Origin: Rhodocyclaceae bacterium
GTDB taxonomy: Bacteria; Pseudomonadota; Gammaproteobacteria; Burkholderiales; Rhodocyclaceae
NCBI GenBank assembly: GCA_016791115.1
Contig: JAEUNL010000004.1
Location: 124,001 to 188,000, forward strand
Length of the DNA stretch: 64,000 bases
Reading direction: 5' to 3'
Positions 45,980 through 56,957 of this stretch are shown piece by piece (position 1 is the first letter of the stretch; the number at the start of each line of letters is the position of its first letter). Below the pieces are notes generated by a model. The model ran no database searches. It was not told the origin of the DNA and saw only the letters and a program-made list of their open reading frames with translations. A program made the translations under genes and the position numbers.

Positions 45980-48082
45980 CTAGAAGCGCATTCTCACGCT
46001 CATGCGGAAGGTGCGAGGTTCGGCCGGATGCAGATGCATGTCCTGCACCGGCGCAACCTCGCCGGCCAGCCGCGATTCGTACAGATACTCGATGTCATTG
46101 ACCCTGCGGTCGAACAGGTTCAGCGCATCGAAAGTCACCTGCAGCGCGCTGTTGATGCGGTAGCCGGCGCGCAGATTGACCAAGGTCGAACCGCTGGAGC
46201 GCACTGAATTGTCTTCGGTCAGCGAACGCGGCCCGAAATAGCGCAGGCGCAATCCGCCGTACCACGGCCCCACGTCGTCTAGCCCAACCCCGAGCGAGGC
46301 TACCCGCTCGATCGCGCCGGGTATGCGATCACCAGCCGGATCGGCATCGCGAAAGCGCGCAATCGAAACCGATACGTCGCCGTCTATCGTCAGCCAAGGC
46401 AGCGGATGATAGTAGGCGGACCACTCCACCCCCTGGCGCCGGCTCGGGCGGCTCGCCTCGGTGGTGCCCGCGTCGCCAACGAACAGCAACTCCGATGCGA
46501 TGTCGAGACGCCATAGCGCCAGTGTCGTCTGCAACCCCGGCAGTGGCGCAGAGCGCATGCCCACCTCGTATCCCTTGGCTCGCACCAGAGGCGTCACCCG
46601 ATCGACGGCGCCGAGAAACCCCGGATCGCGCGGATCTGGATTGACGCGCGTCGTCGCGCCGCGCGCATCGTTGCTGTGGAAACCGCTGCCGGCGTTGAGA
46701 TAGAACTCCGTGCCGGCCCACGGCCCGAACACCAGGCTCGCCTTGGGTCCGCCGATGTCGTCGTGCGCCCGTCCCGAATTCTCCGCACGGTCGCTATGCA
46801 CATCGAATCGATAGAAATCGTGCCGCCAGCCCAGCGTGCTGCGCAACCAGGGCGTCCATTGGGTTGCATTCTGCGCAAAAACACCGAGGCTGCTCTGTTC
46901 GACGCGGTCTTCGCGGATCGTCGTCAGTCGGTCGCCCCGGCTGGTCAGGTAAAGCGCCACCGGATCGATGCGATCGTGTCGCGTGACGAAGCCGACCGTG
47001 TTCTCCAGGTCGAAACCCGCGGCCTTGGCAAACCGGGTCTGCACGCCGCTTGCGCCGAATACGCGCCGGCGATCGGCCTGCTCGAACTGATCGCCTTCGA
47101 CCGGATTGTCGAGGAAGTACGTGAAATTGGAGACCAGTTTGAGCCGGTAGTCCATCGCGTAGACGTTGCCCCGCGTCGCCGTATCGCTGCCGCTGCGCGC
47201 CCAGTCTGCCGACAGGCTGTAACGGTGCGTGCTGCCGCCGTCGCTTGCGTCGAGGGAACCATAACGGCCGATCAATCCGCTGTCGATCGCTCGCTGCGCC
47301 ACCTGGTCGGTCGAACGCCACTGCGCCCGATATGCCATGCCCGTGATCGACCAGCCGTCGTTTGCCGTGCCGCGGCTGTATCGCAACACCCCGTTTAACT
47401 TGCCGAAGTTCTCGGAGATCTGCCACGGGCCATTGCTTTCGTACCATTCCAGGCCATACAGCAGCGCGCCGCCGGCCACTTCCGGAGAACCGGCCAGCAA
47501 TGCGCGGCGATAGCCGTTTTCTCCGAAACCGAGATCGCCGAAGCTGTGCGGCAGCGTGCGGAAATAGTCGATGCGCGCGCTGCCGGCCGCCGCGAAGTCG
47601 CCGTCCTCCGCCGCATACGGGCCCTTGCGGTAGCGCACGCGCTCGACCATTTCGGGAATCAGGAAGTTCAGATCCGAGTAGCCCTGTCCGTGGCCGTGGG
47701 TTGGCATATTCACCGGCATGCCGTTCACAATGGTGGCGAAATCGGTCCCGTGGTCGAGGTTGAAGCCGCGCAGGAAATACTGGTTGGCTTTACCGTCGCC
47801 GCTGTGCTGCGTGATGATCACGCCCGGCACTACTTCCAGCACCTCGCCCGGACGCAGCAGCGGCCGTGTCTCGAGCTGCTTCGCGGTAACCGTGCCCTCG
47901 GTCGCGCTGTCCGCCGTGCCGATCAGTTCGTTGACGCCGGCCTTCACCTGCACCGTATCGAGCGTCGGCACGCCGGCAGCATGCGCGCCAGCAGCGCCGA
48001 GCGCTGCAACCAACCCCGCAACCAGGCGCCACTTGAAACCTCCAGCGCGCATGGTCGAAGTCTGTGTAAGTGGATTTTTCAT
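45980..48082 (-). CDS. TonB-dependent outer-membrane receptor, probably for a nickel complex
   Basis: About 700 aa. Signal peptide near residues 10-36 (AGLVAALGAAGAHAAG). The plug domain is at about 40-170: LDTVQVKAGVNELIG, GEVLEVVPGVIITQHSGDGK, NQYFLRGFNLDHGTDFATIVNGMPVNMP. The His-containing loop THGHGQGYSDLNFL is in the plug. A beta barrel follows, ending with the aromatic RMSVRMRF. It would import a metal chelate using TonB. The hoxN nickel permease ends 61 bp upstream and is transcribed toward it, so the two are probably co-transcribed, which points to nickel; the ligand itself cannot be read from sequence. The start could also be at the Met 10 codons later. Confidence 0.75.
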   Translation of the reverse strand: MKNPLTQTSTMRAGGFKWRLVAGLVAALGAAGAHAAGVPTLDTVQVKAGVNELIGTADSATEGTVTAKQLETRPLLRPGEVLEVVPGVIITQHSGDGKANQYFLRGFNLDHGTDFATIVNGMPVNMPTHGHGQGYSDLNFLIPEMVERVRYRKGPYAAEDGDFAAAGSARIDYFRTLPHSFGDLGFGENGYRRALLAGSPEVAGGALLYGLEWYESNGPWQISENFGKLNGVLRYSRGTANDGWSITGMAYRAQWRSTDQVAQRAIDSGLIGRYGSLDASDGGSTHRYSLSADWARSGSDTATRGNVYAMDYRLKLVSNFTYFLDNPVEGDQFEQADRRRVFGASGVQTRFAKAAGFDLENTVGFVTRHDRIDPVALYLTSRGDRLTTIREDRVEQSSLGVFAQNATQWTPWLRSTLGWRHDFYRFDVHSDRAENSGRAHDDIGGPKASLVFGPWAGTEFYLNAGSGFHSNDARGATTRVNPDPRDPGFLGAVDRVTPLVRAKGYEVGMRSAPLPGLQTTLALWRLDIASELLFVGDAGTTEASRPSRRQGVEWSAYYHPLPWLTIDGDVSVSIARFRDADPAGDRIPGAIERVASLGVGLDDVGPWYGGLRLRYFGPRSLTEDNSVRSSGSTLVNLRAGYRINSALQVTFDALNLFDRRVNDIEYLYESRLAGEVAPVQDMHLHPAEPRTFRMSVRMRF

Positions 48083-48143
48083 TTGTTCACACCCGGGAAA
48101 AAGGCAGCCCGACGACGGCGTGAGGCGTTTCAAATCGATCGGG

Positions 48144-48986
48144 TCAGCTTGCGGATGTCGTTACCGCCGACACGTCGGCGGCAGGACTTTCGATGCGTGC
48201 AAGGCGCACAGCGAAGACGTAGCTGCTCGCGACGCAGAACACGACAGCGGCACCGAAGAGCATGTCCCGCCCTTGGGCCCAGGAATCCACCGCGGGAGAA
48301 ATGAACTTCGCCGCACCGAACGCCGCGACCAGCAGCGACATTGACGAAACGACCAGGCTCATCACGCGCGACGCGACCAGTGCGACCTGATCGGCACGCG
48401 CGATCAGGCGCGAGATCCACAAGCCGTTGACGCCGTCGGTCACCAGCATGCCGAGCATGAACATCAGGCCCAGCGAAAGCGCATGTTCCCAGCCGCCGAA
48501 CTGCGTGGCCGTCAAAGCGAAAAGCGCAGCTTGGCTCAGCGTATCGAAAGAAAGCGCGAACAACGCACCGACCAGCATGACCCAACCCGGCCGCGACGAA
48601 TGCGCAAGCCGCCCAAGCCAGCGCCCCTTGATGCCGACAGGCGCAACGACCTCATGCGGTTGCGCCGCGGTCACGGCGCGCAGATTGACCAGCCCGAGTG
48701 CCGTCAGGAAGCCGATGGAAATCCAGGCGCCGGCCGTCTCCACCCAGGCCGGGACTTCCCAGCGCTGCGCCAGCGTGCTGACGACAAGCGCGATCCCGAC
48801 CACGACCGCGCCGTGTCCGAGCGAGAACAGTGTGCCGCAATAGCGTGCGATGCGCGGGTTCGCGCGCGCATTGAAGCGGGTCAGTCCATCGATGGTCGCC
48901 AGATGGTCGGCGTCAAAGCCGTGCTTGATGCCGAGCATGAAGACCAGCGTCGCCAGGGTGGTCAAATCGGTCGGCAGGGCGTGCAT
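48144..48986 (-). CDS. hoxN: High-affinity nickel/cobalt permease HoxN (NiCoT family)
   Basis: 280 aa with about seven membrane segments. The family signature HGFDADHLATIDGLTR (HX4DH) is at about residues 22-37, and the second motif FSLGHGAVV lies near 56. Further helices contain GALFALSFDTLSQAALFAL. It brings Ni2+ across the inner membrane for hydrogenase maturation. ATG at 48986 is chosen since AGGA lies about 8 nt upstream; the frame is open to 49028 but that extension runs through the NikR-like box. The gene sits downstream of hoxJ and before the TonB receptor, and is apparently controlled by NikR. Confidence 0.93.
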   Translation of the reverse strand: MHALPTDLTTLATLVFMLGIKHGFDADHLATIDGLTRFNARANPRIARYCGTLFSLGHGAVVVGIALVVSTLAQRWEVPAWVETAGAWISIGFLTALGLVNLRAVTAAQPHEVVAPVGIKGRWLGRLAHSSRPGWVMLVGALFALSFDTLSQAALFALTATQFGGWEHALSLGLMFMLGMLVTDGVNGLWISRLIARADQVALVASRVMSLVVSSMSLLVAAFGAAKFISPAVDSWAQGRDMLFGAAVVFCVASSYVFAVRLARIESPAADVSAVTTSAS

Positions 48987-49010: not shown

Positions 49011-49037
49011 GTATGAAGAATATAACAAAGCTCATAC
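49011..49037 (-). promoter_or_regulatory. NikR-like operator and promoter of hoxN
   Basis: GTATGA-N15-TCATAC, a perfect inverted pair of NikR half-sites (consensus in E. coli is GTATGA-N16-TCATAC). An extended -10, TGTTATATT on the minus strand, lies inside it (49019-49027), so a bound NikR would block RNA polymerase. It lies 25 bp before the hoxN ATG. A nikR gene is encoded 1.6 kb away on the same strand. The spacing is one base shorter than canonical, which must be checked experimentally. Confidence 0.75.
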
Positions 49038-49181
49038 AACTTTCATGCCCGGCGCGAACGCACCGACGGCGCCAGAGATTTTCATTTCAGTTCAGAGGAC
49101 TGCAGTTGCAGGAGCAGCGCTGGAGAACGGTTTGCCGACAAGCGGGTTACCGCCACCCCTGCCAATTCGAAAACCGCACGT

Positions 49182-50549
49182 TCAATCGGCTCGCGGCAGC
49201 CTGAGGCGGAATACGGCGCCGCCATCGGGATGGTTGAAAACCTCGAGCTTGCCGCCGTGGCGCTCGACGATGCCGTAGGAAATGGCCAAGCCAAGGCCGG
49301 TTCCTTTGCCGACCGCCTTGGTGGTGAAGAAGGGGTCGAAGATCTGGGGCAGGATGTGCGGATCGATCCCGGCGCCGTTGTCGTGGAAGTTCACTTCGAT
49401 CTCGCGATCGACGATGCATGCGGCAATGTCGAGATTCGGCGCAGTCTGGCTCGCGGTTGCATCGAAGGCGTTCTGCACCAGATTCATCACCACCTGCTGC
49501 ATCTGCCCGGACGACCCGAGCATGGGCAGCGCGCCGGGTAGGTCGAGCGTGACATTGAAGCGCTCCGACGCGGCCTTGCTCACCCAATGCACCGAACGCT
49601 CGATCACGTCCTTGAGGTCGAAGGCACTGTTCTCGTCGCGATCCACGGCCGAGAAACGCTTGAGCCCGTCGACGATGTCGCGTGTGCGCTCGGCGCCTTC
49701 GATCGTGCCTTCAATCAGCGGCGCCAGATCCTCGATGATGCGGTCGATGCGCAGCTCGGCACGCAGTTCGGCAACGCGTTCGGGCGACAGACCGCCATGC
49801 ACGCCCTCGAGATAGCTCTGCAAGCGGCTAGCGTAGCGCTGCAGCGCATGCACGTTGCCGATGATGAAGCTGATAGGGTTGTTCAGCTCGTGCGCGACGC
49901 CCGCGACCAGACGGCCGAGCGACGCCATTTTCTCGGAGTGCAGCAGTTGCTGCTGGGTACGCTTGAGGTCGTCGTGCGCCTGGCGCAACGCGTGGTAAGC
50001 GCGGCGCAGCTCCCCGACCGGTCGCCCGGTGACCACCATGCCGAGCATCTTGCCAACCGAAGAGTAGCGTGGCGTGCAGTTGAGCGAAACCGGTATCGCC
50101 GAGCCGTCAGCGGCACGCAGCTGCAACTCGCAATCGTGTGCCGTCTCTGCACTGTAGCCCGGAAACATTCGCTGCGCGGTCTGGCGCGACACTTCGTCGG
50201 CGCACAGGTCGAACAGCGAGGTACCGCGCAGGGAGTCGGCCGTACGCCCGGTGAAATCGACCAGGGAACGATTGACGTCTTCGATTGTGCCATTGCGGCT
50301 GCATACGACGAGGATGTCCGACATCGAGGTCAGCACGCTCATCACGAACTGCTGGGTTTCCTCGAGCGTGGCGTTCTTCTCTTCGAGTGCAACCTCGTAC
50401 TGGAGCAGGTCGCTGTAAACCTCGTCCATCTTCTGGATCACGTCGATCCAGACGTTCTCGTCCAGCATCTGCGGCCGCTCCGTGCCGTCCGCGAAGAGTT
50501 GCAGCGGCGAGGGAACCGGCGGAAGCCCCGATTGGCGGTCGCGGGGCAT
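49182..50549 (-). CDS. hoxJ: H2-sensing histidine kinase HoxJ (HupT-like)
   Basis: 455 aa soluble kinase. An N-terminal coiled coil ([19 protein letters not shown] and [13 protein letters not shown], as in HoxJ/HupT) precedes a PAS domain at about 75-190. The H box [13 protein letters not shown] holds the phosphorylated His near residue 215. ATPase boxes: [10 protein letters not shown] (N), FHDNGAGI (G1), [20 protein letters not shown] (F and G2), all intact. In Cupriavidus, HoxJ is inhibited by the H2-bound regulatory hydrogenase HoxBC through its PAS domain and otherwise phosphorylates HoxA. Its ATG shares one base with the nikR stop (TGATG), so translation is coupled. Confidence 0.92.
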
Positions 50550-51016
50550 CAGCTGCGCGGCTTGAGGTGGGTATGGCCACGGCCGCTCGGATGGCGATAT
50601 CGTGCGCCGGCCTGCAGATCGACCGTCACCAGGTTCAGGCTGCCATGACGCACGCCGCGTTCGGCGACCATCGCTTCGGCGAAGCGGCGGACGTCCGACG
50701 TCTGCCCGCGCAGGATCACGCTCTCGATGCAGTTCTCGTGATCGAGGTGCGCGTGCATGGTCGAAATGCACAGATCGTGATGATCATGCTGCAAGCCGGT
50801 CAGACGCTCGGCCAGCTCGCGTTCATGATGGTTGTACACGTAGCTGAGGTTGGCGACGCAATGCGGCGCCTGCTCGGTTTTCTGACGATACTGCTCGAGC
50901 TGGCTGCGCAGGATGTCGCGCACCGCCTCTGAGCGGTTGCTGTAGCCGCGCGCCGCGATCAGCCGGTCGAATTCGCGCGCGAGGTCTTCATCCAGCGATA
51001 TGGTGAAGCGTTCCAT
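50549..51016 (-). CDS. nikR: Nickel-responsive regulator NikR
   Basis: 155 aa. The N-terminal ribbon-helix-helix starts MERFTISLDEDLAREFDRLI. In the C-terminal ACT domain the high-affinity nickel ligands are all present: H77, H88, H90 and C96, matching E. coli H76, H87, H89, C95 with an offset of one. An additional His cluster (H79, H80, H93) may add low-affinity sites. It lies 17 bp after hoxC and overlaps hoxJ by one base, inside the H2-sensing operon. Its probable target is the box before hoxN. AGGGGCG precedes the ATG. Confidence 0.95.
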   Translation of the reverse strand: MERFTISLDEDLAREFDRLIAARGYSNRSEAVRDILRSQLEQYRQKTEQAPHCVANLSYVYNHHERELAERLTGLQHDHHDLCISTMHAHLDHENCIESVILRGQTSDVRRFAEAMVAERGVRHGSLNLVTVDLQAGARYRHPSGRGHTHLKPRS

Positions 51017-51033
51017 GGTCGCCCCTGGTGGAC

Positions 51034-52473
51034 TCAGTGCACCGTGCACACCATGCACGGATCGAAGGAGCGTACCACGTGCTGGATCGCCGGCGCCGCA
51101 CCGTCCCCTGCAGCCACGCCGACCAGCGCCTGTTCCAGCGCTCCCGGCACGCCCGTCGCGTCGCGCGGCGAAAAGTTCCAGGTCGTAGGCGCCACGATCT
51201 GGTAATTGGCGATGCGCCCGCGGCGAATCGAAAGCCAGTGCCCCAGGGCCCCGCGTGCCGCCTCGACCATGCCGACTGAATCAGCCTCGTCGGGCAAGGA
51301 GCCGGTCTCGCAGAAAGGCGCCCCGGGTTGCAGTGCCTTCGCCCACCGCTCCATCTGCGGCAACACCAGTGCGATCTCCAGCAGGCGGCACACCACGCGC
51401 GCATGGACGCTGCCGCCCGATCGAGCCAGTTCACGCGCCAGCGGATGGCCCTGCACGGCAAGTCTCGCGAGCGCGCCGGTCTCCGCCACACGGCCGTTCC
51501 ATCGCGGCGCCTTGCACCAGGTGTAGGCCCCGGCCTTGTCCGCTTGCGGCAAGGTCGCGCCCTGGGCCGGATTGCGCGCCGCATCCTCGCCGGCAAGCCA
51601 GGCGTGGCTCACGTCCTCGGTAATCGCTTCGGACAGCAGTTCGTGCAGATCACCGTCCCATACACCCCTGCGCAACAGGCGCCCGCCCTCGAACGCATAG
51701 CTGCCATGGCTCAGGTAAACCCCGGGCCCCGCCCCGATTCGATCGAGCCCGCAGTCGCGCGCCAGTTCGAGGTAGCGGCGGAAGTCACTGTGTGCAACCG
51801 GGCGCGCATCGCGCCAGGCATCCAGCGCGGCACAGTTGTCGAGCGCAGCAATTGCCTCGAGCGCGTCGCCGAACAACGTGCGCTCCAGGTATGCGCGGAA
51901 GGCTCGGAGCAAGGCAATGATGCGTATGCGTTCCGATGCGTCCACGGGCCGCGTCGAGCCGCCCGGCTGCAACGCCAGCGTATGCGGCCACTTGCCCGCC
52001 ATGAAACCCTGCAGCTCCAGGAAATCGCGGCGCGCCGGCAGGACTTCCGCCGCCGCGCTACCGCTCACCGCCTTGAAGCGCGAAACCGCCTCGGCGTGCC
52101 AGACGCGCTTCGCGTAGGCCTCGCGCGCGAAATCCGGCATGAAGAACAGATAGAAATGACTGAAGTGGTCGGCCAGGTTTTCGCAGCCTGCGATCAGGTT
52201 ATGGGCCAGTTCGCCATTGACCGGCGCCGACACGCACATCGCCTGCGACAGCGCGGCCGCTGCGGCGGCCGATTGCGAAACCGAGCAGATGCCGCAGATA
52301 CGTGGCACGAACATCAGGGCATCGAGCGGGTGCTTGCCCAGCAGGATCTGCTCGAAGCCGCGGAAAAGCGGCGAATTCACCTGCGCACTGCGTACCACGC
52401 CATCTTCGACATCGAGCGTCACCTCGAGGTCACCCTCGACGCGGTTGAAGGGGCCAACGATCAGGCGCGACAT
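51034..52473 (-). CDS. hoxC: Regulatory [NiFe] hydrogenase large subunit HoxC
   Basis: 479 aa. It carries the Ni-Fe site with L1 motif RICGICS (C60, C63) and L2 motif DPCMVCTVH (C473, C476), the latter being the very last residues. The protein thus ends exactly at the His where other large subunits are cut by a protease, so no C-terminal maturation extension exists. This is the hallmark of H2-sensing hydrogenases (HoxC/HupV). It forms a cytoplasmic complex with HoxB and reports H2 to HoxJ. It lies 73 bp after hoxB and is followed by nikR, not directly by hoxJ. Confidence 0.96.
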   Translation of the reverse strand: MSRLIVGPFNRVEGDLEVTLDVEDGVVRSAQVNSPLFRGFEQILLGKHPLDALMFVPRICGICSVSQSAAAAAALSQAMCVSAPVNGELAHNLIAGCENLADHFSHFYLFFMPDFAREAYAKRVWHAEAVSRFKAVSGSAAAEVLPARRDFLELQGFMAGKWPHTLALQPGGSTRPVDASERIRIIALLRAFRAYLERTLFGDALEAIAALDNCAALDAWRDARPVAHSDFRRYLELARDCGLDRIGAGPGVYLSHGSYAFEGGRLLRRGVWDGDLHELLSEAITEDVSHAWLAGEDAARNPAQGATLPQADKAGAYTWCKAPRWNGRVAETGALARLAVQGHPLARELARSGGSVHARVVCRLLEIALVLPQMERWAKALQPGAPFCETGSLPDEADSVGMVEAARGALGHWLSIRRGRIANYQIVAPTTWNFSPRDATGVPGALEQALVGVAAGDGAAPAIQHVVRSFDPCMVCTVH

Positions 52474-52546: not shown

Positions 52547-53557
52547 TCATTTGAGTCCGGTGCGCTTGATAGCCGGCGTCACCGCGGCATGGTCCGACGT
52601 CGCATTCTCGCGCACGCGCTTCGGCGTCGCGGATTTCGACAGCGCGGCAAGCGCCACGAACCAGGCGCGCGGCATGTCGGTCGGCAGCCCGATGGGGATG
52701 CCGGCGATCTTCGGCGTCTCACCGAACGGATGGCCCGGCTCCTCGAACCCCGGCTCGGTACAACTGATGCAGGCATAACCGCCGTTGGTGCACGAACCGC
52801 TGCCGTTCCAGGCGCGCGTGTTGCAGTCCGCATGCGCCTGGGTGCCCTTGCACCCGAGGTTCTCCATCAGGCATCCCAACTGCGAAGGCGCCTCCGCGCT
52901 GGCCTTGAATTCGTAGTACTCGTTGCGCGAGCAGCCATGGTGTACCAGTTGATCGGCGTAGAACCGTGGCCGCCCGATCGCGTCCACATCGCGCGCGCCG
53001 AAATCGCCGAGCGCGACGGCCAGCAAGGTGTCCGTCACCCATCCCGGATGCGTCGGACAGCCGGCGATGTTGATCACGCGCTCGCCGTTGCCCGATGCAT
53101 ACTGCGGGCCAAGCGCGCCGCCAAGCTGGGCACCGTCGTACTGCAGGCCGCAGGCGTCGGCCGGATTTGCACCGGCCGCCGTCACGCCGCCGTAGGCGGC
53201 GCAGGTGCCGACCGCCAGTGTCCAGCGGGCGCGCCGCGCGAGCCGGCGCACCCAGTCGATCATCGGCACGCCGGTACCGGCCAGCATGTGAAAGCGGCCG
53301 CTGCCGTTCGGGCCACGCAGCAACGCACCCTCGACGCACAGGATATCGAGTGCTGTACGCCCGTCGGCACAGTCCTCGAGCAGCGCCGTCACCTCGTCGC
53401 AACTCGCCTCGGAAAGACTCGGATGCCACAGCAGGTTGATGCCCGCATCGTCCAGCATCTGCACCACATTGGCGGCGTCCGAACACAGCAGCGACATGGT
53501 ACAACCGCCGCAGCCGCCGGACTGGAGCCAGAGCAGATTGAGTCTGGCGTCACTCAC
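52547..53557 (-). CDS. hoxB: Regulatory [NiFe] hydrogenase small subunit HoxB
   Basis: 336 aa carrying the iron-sulfur clusters. LQSGGCGGCTMSLL at the N-terminus begins the proximal cluster, then GTCAAYGGV, INIAGCPTHPGW, HHGCSRNEYYEF, and the C-terminal ADCNTRAWNGSGSCTN with ACISCTEPGF. No Tat signal precedes the first cluster, in line with a cytoplasmic sensor. Transfers electrons between the HoxC active site and the sensor kinase complex. GTG at 53557 is preferred, with GGAG 6 nt upstream; the open frame runs far upstream only through intergenic and antisense-like sequence. The 221-bp gap to hoxA holds the inverted repeats at 53618-53730. Confidence 0.95.
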   Translation of the reverse strand: MSDARLNLLWLQSGGCGGCTMSLLCSDAANVVQMLDDAGINLLWHPSLSEASCDEVTALLEDCADGRTALDILCVEGALLRGPNGSGRFHMLAGTGVPMIDWVRRLARRARWTLAVGTCAAYGGVTAAGANPADACGLQYDGAQLGGALGPQYASGNGERVINIAGCPTHPGWVTDTLLAVALGDFGARDVDAIGRPRFYADQLVHHGCSRNEYYEFKASAEAPSQLGCLMENLGCKGTQAHADCNTRAWNGSGSCTNGGYACISCTEPGFEEPGHPFGETPKIAGIPIGLPTDMPRAWFVALAALSKSATPKRVRENATSDHAAVTPAIKRTGLK

Positions 53558-53778: not shown

Positions 53779-55245
53779 TCAGTTCGCCTTGTCCAGTCCG
53801 TAACGCGACAGCTTGCTGCGCAAGCCGACGCGCGACAGCCCGAGTTCCGCAGCGGCGCGGGTCTTGTTCCAGCGATGGCGGATCAGCGTCTCGCGCAGCA
53901 CACGGGCTTCGAGCGCCTCCATGCGATCCTTGAGATTGCCATCGATGCCAGTCAGCACGTCGAGGTCGCGCTCTTCCTCTTCGCGCGCGGCGTGCAGCAC
54001 CCGCGTCGACAAGTGCTCGGCGCCGATCACTGCGCCGTCCGAAAGCGCCAGCATGCGCAGGATCTCGTTCTGCAATTCCCGTACGTTGCCGGGCCAGCGA
54101 TAGGCTCTCAGGCACTCGATCACGTTCGGCGCGAATCCCTCCACGTCGCGCCCCAGCGTGATCGCGGAACGGGACAGGAAGCCCTGCGCGATCAATGGAA
54201 TGTCCATCGGCCGTTCGCGCAGCGGCGGCACCTGCAGCGCGACCGTCGCGATGCGGTAGTAGAGATCCTCGCGGAAGCGACCTTCTCGCACTTCCAGTTC
54301 GAGGTCGCGGTTGGTCGCGGCAACGACGCGCACATCCACCGCCTGCGGCCGCGGGCTGCCGAGCGGGCGCACCTCGCCTTCCTGCAGCACGCGCAGCAGC
54401 TTGGCCTGGAAAGCCGGCGAGGTCTCGCCGATCTCGTCGAGGAACAGCGTACCGCCGTTGGCCTGCTGGAACAGGCCGATGCGATCCTCGAACGCGCCGG
54501 TGAAGGCACCGCGCTTGTAACCGAACAGTTCCGATTCCAGCAACTGGTCGGGCAGCGCGGCACAGTTCTCGGTGACGAAAGGCCGCTCGGCACGGCCGCT
54601 CTGGTAGTGCAGTGCGCGCGCCAGCAGCTCCTTGCCGGTACCCGATTCGCCGCTGAGCAGGATTGACACGTCGTACGGCGCCACCTTCTGCACCATCGCG
54701 CAGAGCCGGTTCATCGGCGAGCCTTCGGTGCGCGCGATCGAATCGACGCCGAAGCGGTGCTTCGCCTGGGTGCGCTGCACGTCGACGCGCCGCTTGAGCA
54801 CGGGCTCGGCGGCCCGCAGATCGAGCGACAGGCGCTGATTCTCCTGCTGCAACCGGTGCAGCTCGGCCGCGCCCTTGAGCGTCAGCAACAGCTGGTCGGG
54901 CTGCCAGGGCTTGAGCATGTACTGGTAAATGCCCGCATCGTTGATGCCGGCGATGATGTCCTCGGCATCGGTATAGCCCGAGATGATGATGCGGACGGTA
55001 TCCGGCCATTGCGCCCGCACGCGCTTGAGGAACTGCACGCCCGATGTGCCCGGCATGCGCTGGTCGCACAAGATGAGCTGGATGAACTCGCGCTCCATGA
55101 TCACCTGCGCCTCGTCGGCGCCAGAGGCGGTGAACACCTCGAACTCCTCTTCCAGCGTGCGGCGCAGCGATTCCTGCGAGCGCACCTCATCGTCGACCAC
55201 CAGCACCGATGGCAGACGCGGCGGCTTGCCGAGCGGTGCGTTCAT
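53779..55245 (-). CDS. hoxA: Sigma-54-dependent response regulator HoxA
   Basis: 488 aa NtrC-type activator. Receiver: [10 protein letters not shown] acid pair, phospho-acceptor in [10 protein letters not shown], Lys in MLKPWQP. AAA+ domain: Walker A GESGTGKE, the sigma-54 contact loop GAFTGA, Walker [12 protein letters not shown] and the arginine region. C-terminal Fis-type helix-turn-helix [17 protein letters not shown]. It switches on hydrogenase genes; unusually for the class, non-phosphorylated HoxA is the active form in Cupriavidus. ATG at 55245 overlaps the HypX stop by 4 bp (ATGA). The targets with -24/-12 promoters are not in this window as far as I can see. Confidence 0.95.
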
Positions 55246-56957
55246 GCGGCGCCCTCCGGCACGCACCAGCCCAGCTCGCGATGCAGCGCCAAGTGACGCG
55301 GCGTCCACGAATTCGGGCTCTTGGCGACGAAGTGAAAGCGCGCAACGTGATAGCTAGGATCAAAGCCGTAGAAGTTGCGCCGCATGTTGGCAAGCTCCTC
55401 GTCGCGATAGATGGCCAGGGGCTTGGTCTTCTCGTCATCCGCACGCCGCGCACGTTTGGCTTCGAGCCGTGCCGCGAAATCCGGCGCCTGCGCGAGCGCA
55501 GACGCACGTTCCGCGACCTCCTCTGCAAACCCGGCGGGCGGCGCGTCGATGCAGGCGTCGACCATTTCCTCGCGCAGGGCCTGCGGCGCCGGCAACGGCA
55601 TCCGGTTGCCGACGATGCGACGCGCACGATCGGCGCCGACACGGCGCGGCAGCAGGTAAGTCCAGTACTCGGAACCGTAGAGGTTGCCCATGTTCTTGTA
55701 GTGGGGGTTGAGGATCACGCCGGCACGCGCCCACACCCTATCTGCAGCCAGCGCCAGAAAGGCGCCGCCCGCGCCGGCATTGCCGCACAACGCGGCGACG
55801 GTCAGATGGGTATCGGTTTCGATCACGTCGCGCGCGAAATCGTCGATCGCATTGATGTTGTCCCACGAGGCGTCGGCGGGACTGCCTGCCGCCTCGATCA
55901 TGTTGAGATGGATGCCGTTGCTCCAGTAATCCGTTCCCCCTTCGAGGACGATGACCCGCGTCGGCCGCGAACGCGCGAACGCATAGGCCTGGCGCAGGCG
56001 GCTGCATTGTTCGGTCGACATCGCACCGTTGTAGAACTCGAAGGCGAGAAAGCCGACCTGCCCCTGTTCGCGGTAGCGCAACTCGCCCCATTGACCGTCG
56101 TCGCGCATCAGGGGCGCAGCGCTCTCCGGCAGCGCAGCCGTCTCCCGCGGGAACGCAACCGTCGCCGGCAACTTGAAACTGCCCGCACGGTCCGCACGCT
56201 TGACGTGCCCGATCCACAGCGCGCCGTCGCGCGTAAGTCGCAGCAATGCGCCATCGCGGCGCGCGACGATGTCGCCGGCGGTACCGGCCGGCCGCTGCGC
56301 CTCGGCATGTACGTCGAACAGGTTGCACGCAATGCCGAACAGGGAATCCGCGACACCGGGAAAACCATCGGCGGCATTGATCTTCGCCACGATGGTTGCC
56401 GTGTCGTCGGTCGACCAGTCGATGCGCCGATCTTCCTGGCGCATCAGCGGACGCAACTGCCCGCGCGCCACGGCCCGGGCCAGCGGCAACGGCCTGAAGC
56501 CGGGTGCGGCAAAGCGTTCCACCGCAGCCAGTACCGCTCGTGTCGCCGACTCCGTGACCTCGTTGCGATAGAGGCTGGATTTCTTGGCGCAGCGCATCGG
56601 AAAGGTTTCGGCTGCCCAGATGTCACCGGCATCCATTTCGGCATTCGCCTGCAGCACCGTGACACCCCATTCGCGCTCGCCGGCCTGTATCGCCCAGTCG
56701 AGCGCCGACGGCCCACGATCGCCGACGATGCCAGGATGTACGACGAGGCAGACATGGCGCGACCAGATCGAGGCCGGGATGGCGCGACGCAGGTAAGGCG
56801 CGACGATCAGCTCGGGTCGGAACAGCGCAACGGCTTCCTCGGCCACGCTGTCGGAGATGTCGAACTCGATCGAGACCACGTGGCCGCGCGCGCGCAATTC
56901 GCTGAACAGGCGCTGGGTCAGGCTGTTGAAACTGTGGGTCAGGAACAGGATGCGCAT
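55242..56957 (-). CDS. hypX: HypX (HoxX), CO-ligand biosynthesis protein
   Basis: 571 aa two-domain enzyme. The N-terminal formyl-THF hydrolase-like domain (about 1-270) has VHPGIVGDRGPSALDWAI and a formyltransferase-like C-terminal subdomain. The C-terminal crotonase-like domain (about 285-550) contains GNAGAGGAFLALAADRVWA and YGSEYWTYLLPRR. HypX converts formyl-THF, via formyl-CoA, to CO for the [NiFe] centre under aerobic conditions. Its position hypE-hypX-hoxA matches Cupriavidus. Presence of hypX signals that the hydrogenase is made in air. The gene begins 10 bp after the hypE stop. Confidence 0.93.
   Translation of the reverse strand: MRILFLTHSFNSLTQRLFSELRARGHVVSIEFDISDSVAEEAVALFRPELIVAPYLRRAIPASIWSRHVCLVVHPGIVGDRGPSALDWAIQAGEREWGVTVLQANAEMDAGDIWAAETFPMRCAKKSSLYRNEVTESATRAVLAAVERFAAPGFRPLPLARAVARGQLRPLMRQEDRRIDWSTDDTATIVAKINAADGFPGVADSLFGIACNLFDVHAEAQRPAGTAGDIVARRDGALLRLTRDGALWIGHVKRADRAGSFKLPATVAFPRETAALPESAAPLMRDDGQWGELRYREQGQVGFLAFEFYNGAMSTEQCSRLRQAYAFARSRPTRVIVLEGGTDYWSNGIHLNMIEAAGSPADASWDNINAIDDFARDVIETDTHLTVAALCGNAGAGGAFLALAADRVWARAGVILNPHYKNMGNLYGSEYWTYLLPRRVGADRARRIVGNRMPLPAPQALREEMVDACIDAPPAGFAEEVAERASALAQAPDFAARLEAKRARRADDEKTKPLAIYRDEELANMRRNFYGFDPSYHVARFHFVAKSPNSWTPRHLALHRELGWCVPEGAA

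Follow-up and report, generated by a model that had tools for sequence, protein, structure and literature searches.

Hydrogen-sensor genes, nikR and a candidate composite promoter of a nickel permease gene in a Rhodocyclaceae bacterium

Why would the gene for a nickel-responsive repressor sit in the middle of a set of genes for sensing hydrogen? The question arises from a stretch of 64,000 nucleotides of a Rhodocyclaceae bacterium, below called the window. The window sequence and a domain search give the order hoxA-hoxB-hoxC-nikR-hoxJ on the minus strand. hoxX, hoxA and hoxB lie on this same strand, 5' of hoxC. On the 3' side of hoxJ there is a gene for a NicO-family permease, and then one for a TonB-dependent receptor. 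The features are:

53779..55308, minus strand: hoxA, sigma54-dependent response regulator (Response_reg, Sigma54_activat and HTH_8 domains, GAFTGA motif); start approximate
52547..53557, minus strand: hoxB, regulatory hydrogenase small subunit (Oxidored_q6 and NiFe_hyd_SSU_C; predicted start)
51034..52473, minus strand: hoxC, regulatory hydrogenase large subunit, 479 aa, TGA stop (NiFeSe_Hases)
50549..51016, minus strand: nikR, nickel-responsive repressor, 155 aa, from ATG at 51016 to TGA at 50549 (RHH_1 and NikR_C, NF002815, alignment to 1q5v)
49182..50549, minus strand: hoxJ, PAS-domain histidine kinase, 455 aa, ATG at 50549 (PAS, HisKA and HATPase_c)
49036..49050, minus strand: sigma54-type -24/-12 element GGGCAT-N5-TTGT, a weak match that is stronger in relatives (pattern scan)
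49019..49046, minus strand: sigma70-like candidate ATGAAA-16-TATATT, 9/12, with TG before the second hexamer (pattern scan)
49011..49037, no strand assigned: NikR-type operator GTATGA-N15-TCATAC, exact (motif search)
48144..48986, minus strand: NicO-family nickel permease gene (NicO, PF03824; predicted ATG start)
45980..48133, minus strand: TonB-dependent receptor gene (Plug and TonB_dep_Rec_b-barrel; start approximate)

An earlier, sequence-only reading of this DNA had reported the order hoxB-hoxC-nikR-hoxJ and its tight spacing, and both hold on the minus strand. The gap between hoxC and nikR is 17 nt and contains AGGGGCG, while the nikR stop and the hoxJ start share one base in TGATG. That reading had also considered that a promoter or terminator might isolate nikR. 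A pattern scan of the minus strand from hoxC to the end of hoxJ found neither a sigma70-like promoter nor a terminator. No Rfam RNA element reaches its gathering score anywhere in the window.

The large subunit of a regulatory hydrogenase ends at its last CxxCxxH, without a C-terminal extension. HoxC here ends in DPCMVCTVH followed directly by the stop, so it too has nothing past the last CxxCxxH. By gene order and domains, HoxB and HoxC are encoded together with HoxA and HoxJ, as expected for an H2-sensing regulatory hydrogenase, and HoxBC is putatively one. The source genome has a second HoxC-like hydrogenase large subunit (G000:C52:34696-36165), 41% identical to hoxC.

NikR is well identified. 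Its RHH_1 and NikR_C domains both exceed the Pfam cut-offs, and it scores 206.9 bits against the NCBIfam equivalog NF002815, where the cut-off is 83. Against TIGR02793, a second NikR model, it scores 161.2, below the cut-off of 175.45. The nickel ligands of E. coli NikR are H76, H87, H89 and C95, according to passages of PMC7055735. In an alignment with the E. coli chain 1q5v, these fall on H77, H88, H90 and C96, the four ligands that the sequence-only reading had named as retained. One copy of nikR was found in the source genome (3.97 Mb, 92.48% complete).

The permease scores 54.8 bits against Pfam NicO (cut-off 27.7), and 65.2 bits against the curated HoxN/HupN/NixA model TIGR00802, far from the cut-off of 333.05. 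It is therefore classed as NicO family only, and nickel is its presumed substrate.

The promoter region of this permease gene is where hydrogen and nickel may come together. The operator lies 24 nt 5' of the permease ATG, and its exact form, GTATGA-N15-TCATAC, occurs once in the 3.97-Mb source genome. From this motif, NikR is predicted to bind there. Elsewhere in the window there are no operator-like sites with up to two mismatches, and therefore no NikR site is seen at nikR, hoxJ or hoxABC; control of nikR-hoxJ or hoxABC by NikR was rejected on this basis. Genome-wide there are 23 further operator-like places, each with two mismatches. A reversed-pattern control gives 8 such places and the scaled mean of window shuffles (0.63 per 64 kb) about 39, so these two yardsticks disagree.

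The sigma54 consensus is TGGCAC-N5-TTGC/T, with GG at -24 and G at -12. The sigma54-type element of the window matches it weakly, and its -12 GT is at the same time the GT of the operator. The sigma70-like candidate overlaps both. On the window's contig, TGGCACG-N4-TTGT elements also lie 5' of runs of genes in which two hydrogenase large subunits are encoded, with other genes in between. The -12 TTGT of the permease promoter thus fits the hydrogenase promoters of the source genome. The region G000:C10:186000-205999 holds two structural hydrogenase large subunits with several same-strand TGGCACG-N4-TTGT elements upstream. Use of sigma54 at the permease promoter is less certain in the source strain than in the group to which it belongs.

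The reading we favour, with a probability of roughly 0.55, is that the hox circuit activates and NikR represses one permease promoter, giving 'H2 and not nickel'. The cluster hoxA-hoxB-hoxC-nikR-hoxJ would then encode the activating circuit as well as the repressor of the adjacent promoter for nickel uptake. HoxBC would sense H2 and act via HoxJ on HoxA, and HoxA would activate sigma54 promoters, presumably including that of the permease. Nickel-loaded NikR would bind GTATGA-N15-TCATAC, covering the -12 element and the permease start region, and in that position it would be expected to exclude sigma54 polymerase. Nickel import for hydrogenase assembly would be on only with H2 present and nickel scarce.

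Relatives have a clearer version of this arrangement. There, TGGCAY-N5-TTGY, the sigma54 promoter form, is found 5' of the permease gene, in many cases with a perfect TGGCAC. The operator begins 13 or 14 nt past the first base of the -24 part, on or beside the -12 bases. Of the 17 nikR-hoxJ loci where an uptake gene can be seen, 16 have operator and sigma54 element in one register. These 17 are the window's own locus and L067, L069, L071, L072, L073, L076, L077, L079, L101, L114, L131, L134, L140, L142, L145 and L156; the duplicates L119, L127 and L141 are excluded. At L072, L073 and L145 the operator is TTAAGA-N15-TCTTAC, symmetric in its TAAGA core, which the fixed motif missed and which was scored by eye. 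The operators of L131, L140, L142 and L156 have two mismatches each. Some of these loci are closely related to one another (L067 and L069; L077, L079 and L134; L072, L073, L131, L140 and L145), and the number of independent cases is therefore far below 16.

At L114 and L142 the composite promoter lies 5' of a DUF4198 gene and not of a permease gene. In L114 this gene is followed by a CbiM-type gene and a FeoB-like gene; the sequence of L142 stops sooner, and that it too serves nickel uptake is assumed by analogy with L114. Since the transporter type differs, the common promoter cannot be put down to a copied permease gene. Both loci (L114:11779-16021 and L142:19564-21425) have an ATG inside the operator, which implies a very short transcript leader.

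Other loci have one part of the promoter or neither. The sigma54 element is kept and the operator absent at L110 and at L066, from a genome in which no NikR was found (G132). In the latter (L066:8066-8130), with the sigma54 element before the permease kept, the operator looks decayed, as GTATGA...CTTATC. L124 has a weaker sigma54 element and no operator. The operator stands without a sigma54 element at L076 (G278), a nikR-hoxJ locus, and at L093 (G182), where the genome has NikR and no HoxC was found. The same holds for L075 (G067), with one mismatch in the operator, though it lies beside hoxJ; nikR is elsewhere. At L080 and L082 the sigma54 element is weaker, and both parts are missing at L068 and L078.

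How far do statistics bear this out? A survey of 300 genomes of the order found 55 permease matches in 53 genomes, and the 300 bp upstream were scanned for sigma54 elements scoring up to 1.5, a threshold chosen after the window's own site was seen. Such elements precede 12 of 17 permeases from genomes with hoxC, versus 3 of 38 from genomes without (Fisher 4.5e-6, kinship ignored). Operators precede 12 of 26 permeases from genomes with nikR, versus 1 of 29 from the others (Fisher 2.5e-4, kinship again ignored). About ten of the counted loci had themselves suggested the composite-promoter hypothesis. When corrected for kinship, the tree of the 30 best permeases yields only 4 independent well-supported pairs, and nothing is significant. 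On average the paired trait goes in the same direction in 2.7 of the 4 for sigma54 and in 2.1 of the 4 for the operator, and practically never in the opposite one.

A scan of the 300 genomes with a 20-base composite of both motifs gave 8 matches, against 0 for the reversed control. All five with at most one mismatch (G000, G062, G111, G170 and G218) come from nikR-hoxJ genomes, where they are the promoters of permease genes. Two matches with two mismatches (G058 and G214) lie 5' of genes whose products share 49 and 50% identity with the TonB receptor of the window; the G214 match has no GG in its sigma54 part. The match in G013 has no related gene nearby.

A scan of 369 genomes of the class added 7 matches, all with two mismatches, and 4 for the reversed control, so here the number alone shows nothing. 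One of the 7 is in G386, from another order, where the composite has a permease gene (45% identical) on one side and hoxJ (59%) on the other, with nikR-hoxA-hoxB-hoxC on a separate contig. On that contig, C286 (L281, L284), nikR comes immediately before hoxA-hoxB-hoxC. In G509, sister of G386, the composite is near a contig end and no related gene was found; the remaining five matches likewise have no related gene. HupR-type activator sites, TTG-N5-CAA, were also considered. They occur in 2 of 21 upstream stretches with 0.69 expected; 67 of 500 shuffles reach the observed count, and this candidate is unsupported.

As to nikR itself, 29 of the 300 genomes have HoxC at an identity of at least 50%, 66 have NikR, and 20 have both. 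The HoxC set includes G058 in two pieces and leaves out G088 (40%); in most genomes only 5 first-look HoxC candidates were scored, so misses are possible. hoxC-nikR-hoxJ occurs in 6 of the 29 (G000, G024, G048, G071, G092 and G170). In three (G111, G218 and G278), nikR-hoxJ is present with 2.5 to 9 kb separating hoxC and nikR, and in two (G062 and G187) nikR-hoxJ lies apart from hoxC. This pairs nikR with hoxJ in 11 of the 20 genomes having both HoxC and NikR. The tighter unit is nikR-hoxJ, kept together where hoxBC lies elsewhere.

Among the best 80 of the named HoxC loci listed, hoxC-nikR-hoxJ occurs within 300 nt in 7, nikR-hoxJ after an insert in 6, and hoxJ-nikR in 1. The last is L132 (11522-13408), where nikR directly follows hoxJ in reverse of the usual order. 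At least 5 of these 80 duplicate the 300-genome set, and many of them are truncated by a contig end or by the limits of the flanks. Loci with the pairing include those of the culturable Dechloromonas agitata (L134) and D. denitrificans (L141), and of Candidatus Desulfobacillus denitrificans. The sequence-only reading had allowed that the order might prove ordinary. That is partly so: it recurs in several families, and it is present in 6 of 29 HoxC genomes and 7 of 80 named loci.

On a NikR tree of 41 distinct sequences, 22 of them beside hoxJ, the label of hoxJ adjacency needs 7 changes. On a HoxC tree of 104 distinct sequences the label needs 8 changes and the direct order 6, excluding 24 rows without visible hoxJ and with gains and losses not separable.

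Where nikR is not directly after hoxC, the 350 bp upstream of nikR lack an operator in 10 of 11 loci. The exception is L101, whose operator is that of a divergent permease; at this locus a sigma54-like site also precedes nikR by 46 nt.

The sequence-only reading had gone a step further, with one message fixing the ratio of NikR to HoxJ and so tying nickel to H2 signalling. The wiring seems real, and co-transcription of nikR and hoxJ is plausible: in the ten other loci measured, the nearest in-frame start of hoxJ lies between 26 nt inside nikR and 25 nt past it. The TGATG overlap of the window and these short distances elsewhere are in favour of a fixed ratio. But the overlap is not conserved, and nikR comes after hoxJ in L132 and before hoxA in G386, so a fixed ratio is unsupported and most improbable. 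The better-supported place for a link between H2 and nickel would be the promoter of the neighbouring nickel permease.

That promoter could also respond to nickel alone. NikR would then repress a sigma70 promoter, in the manner of nik in E. coli, any likeness to sigma54 bases would be a remnant or chance, and nikR would be in the hox operon since hydrogenases need nickel. The sigma70-like candidate with its TG overlaps the operator, the window's sigma54 match is weak, and L076, L093 and L075 have operators without the element. Yet a match of the window's quality arises at a background rate of 0.109 per kb and strand (464 in 4,251,334 bases of these loci), and here it falls in the register of the relatives, many of which have a perfect TGGCAC. 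This makes control by nickel alone rather unlikely, if well worth keeping in mind. It is more doubtful still that nikR and hoxJ merely co-travel like other nickel and hydrogenase genes, with no shared regulatory logic. Such genes often adjoin, as passages of PMC2667541 report, and the pairing is patchy, at 11 of 20 genomes. However, nikR and hoxJ stay paired where hoxBC is elsewhere (G062, G187) and where inserts separate them from hoxC (G111, G218, G278), and the operator keeps its register with the sigma54 element from locus to locus.

The gate of H2 and not nickel may be part of something wider. Tentatively, and at somewhat less than even odds, this is a recurrent module, mostly of Betaproteobacteria, whose single cluster carries both the circuit for sensing H2 and the nickel repressor. 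Both would act on one composite sigma54/NikR promoter, which keeps its register ahead of two nickel-uptake systems that are unrelated. Since the enzyme that senses H2 itself needs nickel, a nickel-free cell could not open the activating arm. The gate would therefore work only in the middle nickel range, and it could be bistable.

A cell that makes hydrogenase has to take in as much nickel as it needs without being poisoned by it. If the reading is true, this would be a compact natural two-input gate for a fuel (H2) and a cofactor metal (nickel), with both sensors encoded alongside, and it would explain the repeated pairing of nikR and hoxJ.

The open-access literature searched yielded no work on NikR together with HoxJ, nor on H2 and nickel inputs joined in one cluster and one promoter; NikR and a regulatory hydrogenase are named together in work on Sulfurospirillum. 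In Dechloromonas aromatica RCB, Table 5 of PMC2907700 lists HoxX, HoxA, HoxB, HoxC, then HupT and HoxN. The gene numbers in the table skip between HoxC and HupT, and a text count of the paper did not find the word 'nikR'.

The closest known system is that of Cupriavidus necator H16. Passages of PMC11540253 describe that without H2, HoxJ inactivates HoxA, that with H2 HoxA stays active, and that HoxA and sigma54 drive the hydrogenase genes. On pHG1 the order is hypF-hypC-hypD-hypE-hoxX-hoxA-hoxB-hoxC-hoxJ-hoxN, with hox names assigned by position and product since the record gives few gene names. This is the same order apart from nikR, also with a nickel permease gene after hoxJ, and hoxBC is followed directly by hoxJ, as the sequence-only reading had stated. 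Unlike the window, the pHG1 stretch read has no nikR, and the 400 bp before hoxN have neither a sigma54 element (score up to 1.5) nor an operator (at most 2 mismatches).

On the nickel side, the comparison is with NikR and nikABCDE of E. coli, which share the NikR family, the nickel ligands and the GTATGA half-sites. The E. coli operator is GTATGA-N16-TCATAC in the relevant passages of PMC7055735, so the spacer is N16 there and N15 here; operators of 27-28 bp are reported in parts of PMC545781. NiCoT and hydrogenase genes have been predicted as NikR targets before (PMC2667541, in part). In the available portions of PMC2667541 and PMC545781 on predicted regulons, neither sigma54 nor H2 comes up as an input, nor does a nikR placed within an operon for H2 sensing. 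All the components belong to families already known, and it is not new to propose that NikR controls transporters of this kind. What differs from E. coli nikABCDE is that the target here is a permease gene, and that a sigma54-type element overlaps the operator.
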